The translations under genes and the position numbers were made by a program. Positions 19,533 to 22,402 of a stretch of 23,311 nt of DNA are shown here, piece by piece. The DNA lies in NCBI GenBank assembly GCA_023423995.1, contig JAFAEL010000271.1, positions 1 to 23,311 on the forward strand. The letters are read 5' to 3'. Under the pieces are notes generated by a model. The model made no database searches. It was not told the DNA's origin and saw nothing but the letters and a program-made list of their open reading frames with translations. The stretch's first letter is position 1. Every line of letters starts with the position of its first letter. Origin of the DNA: Pseudomonadota bacterium. Its GTDB lineage: Bacteria > Pseudomonadota > Alphaproteobacteria > Rhizobiales > Beijerinckiaceae.

Positions 19533-19685
19533 GCACGCGGCTACGCCTACCCGGCCTAGCAGCCGCCCTGGCAGGAGATCCAGCGCAGCATGGTCGACCA
19601 GCTGTCAGAGGCCATGGTGCTGAAGCGGGCGGTGAAATGCCAGAAGGTCGCGCAGATTTTCGGGGTGCCAAGGGATAATCATCAG
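19533..19685 (+). pseudogene. Decayed duplicate of the 3' end of the dehydratase gene
   Basis: Translation gives ARGYAYPA, a stop, then QPPWQEIQRSMVDQLSEAM and on to FGVPRDNHQ, matching the last 50 or so residues of the intact dehydratase upstream with roughly four in five positions the same. A serine TCG is replaced by an in-frame TAG at 19557-19559, the true stop has become CAG, and no start or upstream coding part exists. It therefore cannot make a dehydratase. The divergence suggests the tail of a paralogous gene lost by deletion, not a recent duplication. A terminator hairpin directly follows. Confidence 0.88.
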
Positions 19686-22402
19686 GGGGCGGTCTTCCGC
19701 CCCCTTTCTCCCGTACGGAGCCGCTCTGCTGCCTTAGATAGCGGCCCATCTAGGGCTCCGATGTACCCTTGAACCCGACCCGAACCGTTTGGATCTATCC
19801 AAGAACCTGGGTCGAACTGTATTTCCAGGATCTGTTTGATCACCGATCTTGTGCGCCCGATCTCAGACAGGCTCAGCCCGGCAAGCGGCTTTCGGTCAAG
19901 ACTGATCCGAAGAGGTTCCTCGATTGGATCAAAGATCGCACCCTCCGCCGATAGCACCTCCTGCAGTATCTTCAAAGTTGCATCAAAGCCCGTATTCCGA
20001 GCGGCCGTGTCGAACAAAGTGAATGACGTATTCCGACAATTCTTCTCGGAAACCGATTGGTAATACGAATTCGTTTCTATGTTGGCTCTGTGAACAGATA
20101 GATTGTTGATAAGAGACGACGTAAGCAGCCTGAGGGCATCTTCAACGTTTTCAAAAAGCAGATCTCGCGCGCGGAAAAACTGCATTGATGCTTTCAAGCT
20201 GAGGAATTCTGTCTTTTCCTGTCGCGAATAGTTTCGACCTGAGAGAACAAAATCCGAGATCACTAGGCAATTTGCAAACCCAATACCCGATGAGCGCTCG
20301 GCCTCGAACCAGCCCCTGAGGTGCTCACAAGATGGCTCATACTTTGTAGTCATAACCGACTTGAAGGCCGCTCGCGCGTCATCAAGCCTAGGAGGCTGAA
20401 GCCTTGCTGCTACGTATCCGAACACAGATTTGAATTGCGGATGCTCTGTCACTCCCGGGAGGAGTCGAGGGTCTGAAACAATGCTCCACGCATCTGCACT
20501 GTATGCAGGATCATGCGTTCTTCCTGACCGCTTCAGGAGATCGCCAACCCGCATTGTGAGGCGAGAGATCTGAGGTATATCGGGGAAGTAGGTTTTTTCG
20601 AAATTTCGAATTCTCGCCTTCAGAAGGGTTCCGTAGTCAGCCTTATCCGACTCGTTGTTTACGAAGTTCTTCGTAAGAATATCTAGATCGTAAGTGGTTT
20701 CTGGTCCTGTATCGTTTACCTGGAGAAACATTGCACGAGTAGCGGACACGGCGTCCTTTAGCCTCGCCTCCCCGAACTGCAGGACGGCAAGCAGGTCTGG
20801 CGCAGTTACCGGTCTGTTAAAGATCGCTATTGCCGAAAGAAAGCTTCTCGCATCCTGGCCATGGGGCAAGCTCGCCCACTCTCGCCTAAATACATAGTCT
20901 CGGATATCATCCCCTACGTTACTCTCGATCAGCCGAAATACGGCTTCAAATGAGGGACATGACCTCCGGAGCACGATCGCGTATTCAACAATCAGCGGGC
21001 GCCTTTCGGAAACCAAACTGAGTTGTGTCATTTCACGATCCGACGGCTCCTTTACTTGGTAATGAAAACAGCACTCTCTAACAAATTCCTGGTATTCACC
21101 ATTAGGCGAGAGGCCTGGCACCTCAATACTAGTATTTATGGCGTGAGTTGCTATATTTCTCTGCGTGCATAGGATCCTTGACGCGCGCGAAGACCGCACG
21201 ATCGCTCGATAGAGGAAATTGGTGCCGACATCGATGCCTTTTGTCGTCAGGGTGTCAATATCGTCTAAGACGATCAGGGCAGTAAACTCTGTAAGAAGCT
21301 CTCGCGTGAGCGTTTGAAGCTCCTCCCTTGTCTTGCCTTCAAGACGGTCATCGCTGTGATAGAAGCCAGAGTATGTTAAAATATTTCTCAATAACGAGAC
21401 ATCATCGTAAAAATCAATCGTTATCGGAGTTGAAGCTTTCTCATTTATGGGAACGAACGTTGTCTCTTTCGCGGAAAGATAGATAACGAAGTCGAGCTTG
21501 CTTTGTCCTCCGACTAGAATTTCGTCACCAAACCGTTTGACCACCGATGCAAACTCATGCGCGATGGTTGTCTTCCCTGAACCACCTTTTCCATGAAGGT
21601 ATACTATCGGATCGTCTGACGTGAACAGCCAGTTAAAAAGCGAGTCCATAGAAGGAAGTCGACCAACAAAGTCAATCGCGCGCGAGCTAGGCGGCAGCGT
21701 CCCGGAAAGATTTTGCGACTGTTCTCCCTCTCCTAGATTTACGCCTGTGCGGCAAAAAAGAAGCGGAATATGGCGGGACTCTGCCCTGCAAACACTATGC
21801 CCATCTCGCACCCAGTATTCGTCTTTGAACTTTGTATTTTTCACAAACTTGTAAGGCTCTTGTCCAAGCCGCCTACTTGCAACGAACAGCACATCGACTT
21901 TGTTCCCAGCGCCTAGATCGTACTTTCGGATCTCCATTGTGGGACATCGTCCAGCATACGAGGCTATCGTCTGTCGCAGCTTGTCCGTATTGACGTTGAC
22001 GTGATTATGCCCTCCTGTTCGTTTCTGATCGTGCACACCGAACAAAATAAAACCGCCCTGCGTATTCGCAAAGGCGATGATCAGACGCGCGACTGAAAGA
22101 AAATATTCGTCGGAATAGGAGAACGGCCAAGTCTGCTTGAAATCCCAGTTGACACCTTCTTGGTCGATGTAGGTGCCATCCCCGTTACAGAACAGACTTC
22201 TAAACTCCTCCTCCGAGGGAAATACACGCCGATCAATAAACGATACAAGACACTCTTCTGTCAGCAACGCTCTCGCCCCGAAAAGATTGTAGCAGACCTC
22301 CGCAGAGCTTAGACGGCGGGCCTCCTTGTGCAAAGAGGATAATCTGCATCTCCAGAACTCTCGAGAGGCTAGCTGAGGGCGCCCGCGCGAGGTTGCGGTC
22401 AC
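19682..22402 (-). CDS. STAND-type NTPase with N-terminal Schlafen/AlbA_2-like domain, candidate defence protein
   Basis: A 906-residue protein if started at GTG 22402; TTG 22267 is an alternative, since the first 40 or so residues are GC-rich and unlike the rest. Residues 80-208 look like a Schlafen AlbA_2 domain (WDFKQ, IIAFANTQGGFILFGVHD, YWVRDGHS). An NTPase of NB-ARC/STAND style follows: FVGR linker at 245, Walker A GKGGSGKT (271-278), Walker B LIVLDDID (376-383), SRILCTQR sensor (408-415) and an RRPLIVEYA motif near 468. The C-terminal 350 residues seem helical and may be the sensor. The base composition is much lower in G/C than all neighbours, suggesting transfer. Function is inferred; no partner gene is seen. 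Confidence 0.82.
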   Translation of the reverse strand: MTATSRGRPQLASREFWRCRLSSLHKEARRLSSAEVCYNLFGARALLTEECLVSFIDRRVFPSEEEFRSLFCNGDGTYIDQEGVNWDFKQTWPFSYSDEYFLSVARLIIAFANTQGGFILFGVHDQKRTGGHNHVNVNTDKLRQTIASYAGRCPTMEIRKYDLGAGNKVDVLFVASRRLGQEPYKFVKNTKFKDEYWVRDGHSVCRAESRHIPLLFCRTGVNLGEGEQSQNLSGTLPPSSRAIDFVGRLPSMDSLFNWLFTSDDPIVYLHGKGGSGKTTIAHEFASVVKRFGDEILVGGQSKLDFVIYLSAKETTFVPINEKASTPITIDFYDDVSLLRNILTYSGFYHSDDRLEGKTREELQTLTRELLTEFTALIVLDDIDTLTTKGIDVGTNFLYRAIVRSSRASRILCTQRNIATHAINTSIEVPGLSPNGEYQEFVRECCFHYQVKEPSDREMTQLSLVSERRPLIVEYAIVLRRSCPSFEAVFRLIESNVGDDIRDYVFRREWASLPHGQDARSFLSAIAIFNRPVTAPDLLAVLQFGEARLKDAVSATRAMFLQVNDTGPETTYDLDILTKNFVNNESDKADYGTLLKARIRNFEKTYFPDIPQISRLTMRVGDLLKRSGRTHDPAYSADAWSIVSDPRLLPGVTEHPQFKSVFGYVAARLQPPRLDDARAAFKSVMTTKYEPSCEHLRGWFEAERSSGIGFANCLVISDFVLSGRNYSRQEKTEFLSLKASMQFFRARDLLFENVEDALRLLTSSLINNLSVHRANIETNSYYQSVSEKNCRNTSFTLFDTAARNTGFDATLKILQEVLSAEGAIFDPIEEPLRISLDRKPLAGLSLSEIGRTRSVIKQILEIQFDPGSWIDPNGSGRVQGYIGALDGPLSKAAERLRTGERGRKTAP
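19685..19707 (+). terminator. Intrinsic terminator following the dehydratase remnant
   Basis: GGGGGCGG (19685-19692) pairs perfectly with CCGCCCCC (19697-19704) around TCTT, followed by TTT. It reads in the plus direction, as expected after a dehydratase gene. On the minus strand the same bases encode the last residues of the NTPase. Confidence 0.75.

Follow-up and report, generated by a model that had tools for sequence, protein, structure and literature searches.

A compact AlbA_2-STAND protein of an Enterovirga-like bacterium as a candidate single-gene immune receptor

SAMD9 and SAMD9L are human antiviral tRNA nucleases; gain-of-function mutations in them cause disease, and accounts of their activation so far follow a model derived from other STAND proteins (as outlined in PMC12331169 and PMC13245274). 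SAMD9 consists of AlbA_2, SIR2-like, STAND-like NTPase, TPR and OB domains; bacterial relatives are on record, many kinase-bearing and without AlbA_2, and it has been suggested that animals acquired SAMD9 from bacteria (as summarized in PMC5445408). In SAMD9 the Walker A lysine is a glycine, as one account gives it (PMC13245274). Among bacterial systems, a resemblance to SAMD9 has been reported for the SIR2-STAND protein Avs5 (as described in PMC12931631), and fusions of Schlafen RNases with a minimal histidine kinase and a winged helix-turn-helix have been placed near BREX loci (in the outline given in PMC12839542). Here, we analyse a gene on the minus strand of contig JAFAEL010000271.1 (assembly GCA_023423995.1; the whole stretch of 23,311 nucleotides is called the window), whose product joins an AlbA_2 domain to a STAND NTPase and a helical C-terminus in a single chain.

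The domain order, predicted fold and conserved residues suggest that this is a single-protein STAND immune receptor with a phage-triggered, translation-blocking RNase of the Schlafen/SAMD9 type, an interpretation that we consider somewhat probable. An earlier examination of the window's letters (the sequence-only reading) had described an N-terminal AlbA_2-like domain, a P-loop with Walker A, Walker B and NB-ARC-like motifs, and a long helical C-terminus, all of which are borne out below. It had no name for the exact pairing, for which SAMD9 and SAMD9L offer a counterpart: in them, too, AlbA_2 precedes a STAND-like NTPase (as summarized in PMC5445408). The gene and the parts of its product are listed here; residue numbers are those of the 861-residue protein unless stated, and the numbering of the 906-codon open frame is higher by 45.

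19682..22267, minus strand: AlbA_2-STAND gene, probable extent, TTG start, 861 amino acids (homologue starts, in-frame starts)
21773..22177, minus strand: AlbA_2/Schlafen-type effector, about residues 31-165, with E37, D42, D80 and K44 (Pfam, SLFN13 alignment, structure matches, conservation)
20918..21697, minus strand: STAND/NB-ARC NTPase, about residues 191-450, with Walker A K232 and Walker B D335-D336 (Pfam, structure matches, conservation)
20582..20917, minus strand: post-NTPase region, about residues 451-562, helix and strand mixed (DSSP of the model, conservation)
19685..20581, minus strand: C-terminal helices, about residues 563-861, putative sensor region (DSSP of the model, conservation)

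The N-terminal domain matches SLFN_AlbA_2 (PF04326) in Pfam at E = 3.5e-13 (50.6 bits against a curated cut-off of 25.3; residues 82-204 of 906), and a structure search with its predicted model returns the AlbA_2/Schlafen/SAMD9-tRNase fold. An AlbA_2 fold in this region, on which the sequence-only reading had made its proposal depend, is upheld. Schlafens are the only solved effector relatives that stand out by sequence, and in Foldseek they rank above SAMD9 (E = 1.3e-5 and 4.4e-4, respectively). The proposal that SAMD9 is no worse a fit for the effector than Schlafens was rejected: it holds only by Z-score and aligned length, and both Foldseek E-values and sequence searches favour Schlafens. 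Fold and acidic triad are as in vertebrate Schlafens (SLFN11, SLFN13, SLFN14) and bacterial Schlafen-type proteins, unlike which the window effector is partnered by a STAND switch. The SLFN13 RNase triad (E205, E210 and D248) aligns to E37, D42 and D80, and these are retained in nearly all of 120 aligned rows. K44 may correspond to SAMD9 K198, a pairing made by spacing with no residue alignment behind it. Judged by these residues, the AlbA_2 domain would be expected to have RNase activity.

The second domain matches NB-ARC at E = 4.8e-7 (29.7 bits against a curated cut-off of 23.5; residues 252-418 of 906). Its Walker A lysine (K232) and Walker B aspartates (D335-D336) are conserved across the aligned family, and its structure matches include Apaf-1, NLR and CED-4. 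The region that follows, about residues 451-562, is tentatively read as winged-helix-like. From there, a chain of helices runs to the end of the protein by DSSP assignment on the AlphaFold2 model. This model was built on the 120-row alignment and has a mean predicted local distance difference test score (pLDDT) of 90.6, so the individual domains are well modelled. Foldseek matches to the model as a whole include Apaf-1, SAMD9 and plant NLRs, as well as AVAST proteins (AVAST5, Avs4). Mean pairwise identity falls from 0.48 directly after the NTPase (residues 451-562) to 0.39 and then 0.27 in the helical C-terminal part, which together with the short N-terminus is least conserved. This variable C-terminus presumably acts as the sensor.

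The order of AlbA_2, STAND NTPase and a helical part behind is common to SAMD9/SAMD9L and the window protein. In contrast to SAMD9, no SIR2-like domain separates the first two: AlbA_2 ends at about residue 165 and the NTPase starts at about 191, which leaves a short linker and no room for it. The C-terminal OB domain is likewise absent, with no strand of at least three residues past residue 528 in the model and no Pfam match. Conversely, the Walker A lysine, lost in SAMD9, is present in the window protein. Because the SIR2-like and OB domains are absent, it is not filed as a SAMD9 family member; sequence searches with it returned no SAMD9 match. Nor is it filed as an Avs protein. Avs/AVAST proteins such as Avs5 likewise unite an N-terminal enzyme, a STAND NTPase and a helical C-terminus in a single large chain, but the Avs5 effector is SIR2 rather than AlbA_2, and overall similarity is remote. 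The PADLOC library contains Avs models; at E ≤ 1 none was among the matches, which were PDC-S50 and mad8 only. The candidate PDC-S50 matches the effector region (residues 81-177 of 906, E = 6e-6) through positions 17-116 of a 387-long model, leaving the NTPase and C-terminus uncovered. The protein is an AlbA_2-STAND, the complementary combination to the SIR2-STAND of Avs5. No description of AlbA_2 with a bacterial STAND NTPase and without SIR2 was found in the literature as surveyed by listings and passages, and an earlier description is possible.

The receptor plan resembles that of SAMD9 minus its SIR2-like and OB domains. If it serves defence, the response would likely involve: contact of the variable helical C-terminus with a product or activity of an infecting phage, releasing the resting receptor; nucleotide exchange in the NB-ARC-like NTPase and oligomerization of the protein; arrangement of the N-terminal AlbA_2 RNase domains into their active state by the oligomer; and cleavage of RNA, most likely tRNA, which would stop translation and abort the infection. 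Such a protein would be an infection alarm encoded by one gene, with a design akin to that of a human antiviral protein, as predicted from sequence and model. Being compact, and having a like effector and switch without the SIR2-like and OB domains, it would be a tractable object for studying how a STAND switch activates an RNase. The family would also bear on the proposed bacterial origin of animal SAMD9, and the effectors known from bacterial STAND immune receptors would come to include a Schlafen-type RNase.

The open frame itself was found as the sequence-only reading had claimed, at 19682-22402 on the minus strand, with 906 codons beginning at GTG. It is not a chance frame, since 237 database proteins (among 7991 scored candidates) match at E ≤ 1e-3 and the AlbA_2 label is present in 118 of the best 120. 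The extent given in that reading stands for the open frame and not for the 5' end. Most aligned homologues, typically of about 850 amino acids, begin at the equivalent of residue 45-46 in the 906-residue numbering, and the start is therefore probably the TTG at 22267, preceded by a G-rich stretch. The first in-frame ATG is codon 156 of 906 (window position 21937). The database gene model (P0001) has 751 amino acids and starts at this Met156, probably because the frame has no earlier ATG; most of the AlbA_2 effector is thereby missing from it. Surveys based on gene models could overlook the window copy for this reason.

Relatives whose hosts are named to genus are alphaproteobacterial, including Rhizobium, Bradyrhizobium, Microvirga, Mesorhizobium, Sphingomonas, Ruegeria and Kordiimonas. 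In contigs, a protein-based scan returned no relatives and an alignment-based scan 15 loci. Occurrence is sporadic: at E ≤ 1e-60 and with the centre genome excluded, matches were found in 0 of 396 genomes of the order sample and 2 of 384 of the class sample, one of them partial. Among 72,556 plasmid records 12 match, 10 of them predicted conjugative; two cover at least 80% of the query, and seven near-identical Rhizobium records cover 51%. None of 50,697 phage records matches, and one IMG/VR contig does. Identity to the seven nearest relatives is 44-55%. In the phylogenetic tree, the window protein clusters with seven proteins (100/100), apart from a Microvirga copy from the same host family. 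This tree omits L008, L014, L015, L017 (same gene as L001), L018, L019, L020 and L023, and its nine open forks and several long branches leave resolution weak. The relative on the S. mexicanum plasmid is remote, at 26% identity.

The neighbourhoods of the relatives are varied. A Rhizobium ruizarguesonis plasmid relative is adjoined by a type II restriction set (L020:6909-11385) with REase_II (2e-137), methyltransferase and Vsr genes; an OLD-like ATPase lies in the same interval. The S. mexicanum plasmid relative has Druantia III DruH and DruE, a methyltransferase and Vsr nearby, the IMG/VR relative a type IIG enzyme, and the B. japonicum plasmid relative a HerA gene about 9 kb off. Weaker defence-gene matches occur near L002, L008 and L010, and integrases lie within 2.6 kb of L001, L002 and L005. 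Near other relatives there are ordinary genes, such as those for EAL, FemAB-like, ketoacyl synthase and aminopeptidase proteins. Neighbours were compared with controls using two sets of frames from a simple frame caller rather than a gene finder. The neighbour set comprised frames of 150-1200 amino acids within 6 kb at 18 loci (without L011, L015, L017, L019 and L023-L025) and was the only one searched with Pfam; the control set comprised 125 of 139 frames from 17 stretches, two of them short, of six genomes. At 1e-10, 125 neighbour proteins matched 145 PADLOC families and 125 control proteins matched 28. This difference is not taken as enrichment, because one L020 ATPase alone matched 138 families at 1e-6; the controls also contained a type II methyltransferase (2.8e-68), PDC-M42C and RtcR-type regulators. 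The neighbour set further gave PDC-S73 and Aga-type matches and a fourth integrase, none assigned to a locus. Defence-island enrichment around the relatives is suggestive only. In the contexts examined, the expectation that homologues would not share one housekeeping context is upheld, with defence genes beside some of them, and the expected enrichment over controls is not shown.

Several observations weigh against an immune receptor. Strong defence matches trace to only 3 of the 18 loci (L016, L020 and L022), with a methyltransferase and a PDC candidate occurring in controls too, and of six annotated plasmid regions, four have neither restriction nor Druantia genes by product name. Effector swapping is typical of Avs proteins, and none was seen here. 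With residues 185-860 as query there were 159 matches, and 11 of the best 120 lacked the AlbA_2 label; the six of these that were inspected (P0001, P0122, P0123, P0125, P0126 and P0129) start within AlbA_2, at the NTPase or shortly ahead of it, and so look like short gene models rather than swaps. In the triad, D42 is an aspartate where SLFN13 has a glutamate. The predicted template modelling score of 0.59 makes the mutual arrangement of the domains uncertain. With the TTG start and a promoter scan that gave no match for the gene, expression is unproven. The literature searched yielded no phage experiment on the AlbA_2-STAND family. Finally, Cdc6/Orc1 and TnsC ATPases score about level with NLRs for the NTPase, so immune receptors cannot be told apart by the structure match alone, and a chain of 8bob, a maltose-regulation complex, is also among the whole-model matches.

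A transcription regulator of the MalT type, in which the STAND switch would sense a metabolite and AlbA_2 would bind DNA to control genes, is an unlikely alternative. The RNase triad is almost invariant, which mere binding would not need. The gene is also rare and sporadic, and the six annotated plasmid neighbourhoods have no common gene set by product name, bar a methyltransferase and Vsr in two.

The conjugative plasmids and nearby integrases of the relatives would also suit a system that maintains a plasmid or other element, or acts against competitors, with an RNase toxin restrained by its own C-terminus and serving the mobile element. We judge this distinctly improbable: no candidate antitoxin was seen adjoining the window gene, where one flanking frame was tested by Pfam, and a STAND architecture ending in a variable C-terminus is better suited to sensing. 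A decayed passenger, an insertion relic still open by chance, would fit the TTG start, the missing promoter match and the broken relatives (stops within the matches in G005 and G006, and annotation as two pieces on the R. ruizarguesonis plasmid), but is very unlikely given 861 uninterrupted codons, intact triad and Walker residues, and 44-55% identity to the seven nearest relatives.

The immune-receptor gene, as we interpret it, arrived from elsewhere. The adjacent IlvD/Edd dehydratase shares 97% identity with its counterpart in Enterovirga sp. CN4-39 and 94% with the one in E. aerilata (Enterovirga belongs to Methylobacteriaceae, Hyphomicrobiales), and by sequence similarity the host is a bacterium close to Enterovirga. 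The guanine-cytosine (GC) content of the STAND gene is 0.50, and at third codon positions (GC3) 0.53, against a GC3 of 0.88-0.97 in nine Pfam-matched window genes. Its codon-usage difference from eight pooled window genes is 0.43, compared with 0.12-0.20 for those genes against the pool that includes them. None of nine genomes from the nearest genus, that of G848, has it at E ≤ 1e-20, and the same query found copies in other genome samples. By GC and codon use, its foreign origin is well supported, in agreement with the earlier description of an AT-richer, transferred gene. The surrounding features are as follows.

19015..19159, plus strand: 3' end of the intact IlvD/Edd dehydratase gene, counterpart of the copy (sequence comparison)
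19537..19681, plus strand: second copy of the dehydratase 3' end, 145 bp, 85% identical, abutting the STAND stop codon
22812..22943, no strand assigned: dispersed genome repeat upstream of the STAND gene (matches in G848)

Bracketing by repeats and gene remnants, as previously proposed, is confirmed for the tail copy downstream and the dispersed repeat upstream; the remnant at 22582-22761 has no Pfam match at E ≤ 0.01. The stretch 22403-23311 has 63 matches in the genome G848, mostly to the 22812-22943 part. The two dehydratase-tail copies cannot be the ends of a simple element, the STAND gene of the window being outside both. The search for integrases by model in the window covered ten frames only.

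At this site, two related genomes carry different genes, likewise low in GC and defence-like. In G848, synteny with the window extends over the block 15982-19159 at 89%, and nothing there matches the STAND gene; behind the dehydratase, whose 3' end is single-copy, lies a DUF2971 gene (L053:13823-14692; GC 0.55; PADLOC PDC-S31, 1.6e-16). The window's upstream repeat family reappears further down, weak evidence given that the repeat is dispersed. G816 has the dehydratase 3' end twice, with ordinary TctC and cupin genes between the copies, and directly behind the second lies a pair of GC 0.50 (L054:6838-8844), one HD/dGTPase-like (9.7e-12) and one a 182-residue protein matching DarG (1.7e-8), possibly a two-gene defence or toxin-antitoxin pair. 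Thus low-GC genes follow a dehydratase-end copy in three of the four sequences extending past that end (the window, G848 and G816; not G911), a small sample in which the contig stops there in two more genomes and four of nine genomes have no match to the end. Outside the genus, the frame predicted to follow the dehydratase has a GC of at least 0.65 in seven genomes. The dehydratase 3' end may be a slot for accessory genes in Enterovirga; that the tail copy travels with its cargo gene is only an idea, and not applicable to G848 with its one copy. Whether the window protein is in addition a prokaryotic counterpart, possibly the ancestral type, of the SAMD9 antiviral core, a one-gene sensor with an intact Walker A lysine that cuts tRNA on phage infection through a SAMD9/Schlafen-type RNase under the control of an NLR-like switch, and is carried as cargo of a small Enterovirga dehydratase defence slot where some arriving genes bring along a 3'-end copy, we regard as doubtful.

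In G845, a 198-residue frame without Pfam or PADLOC match stands behind the dehydratase (L056:5324-5920). The 22812-22943 repeat family has dozens of copies in G848, some of them closely spaced.
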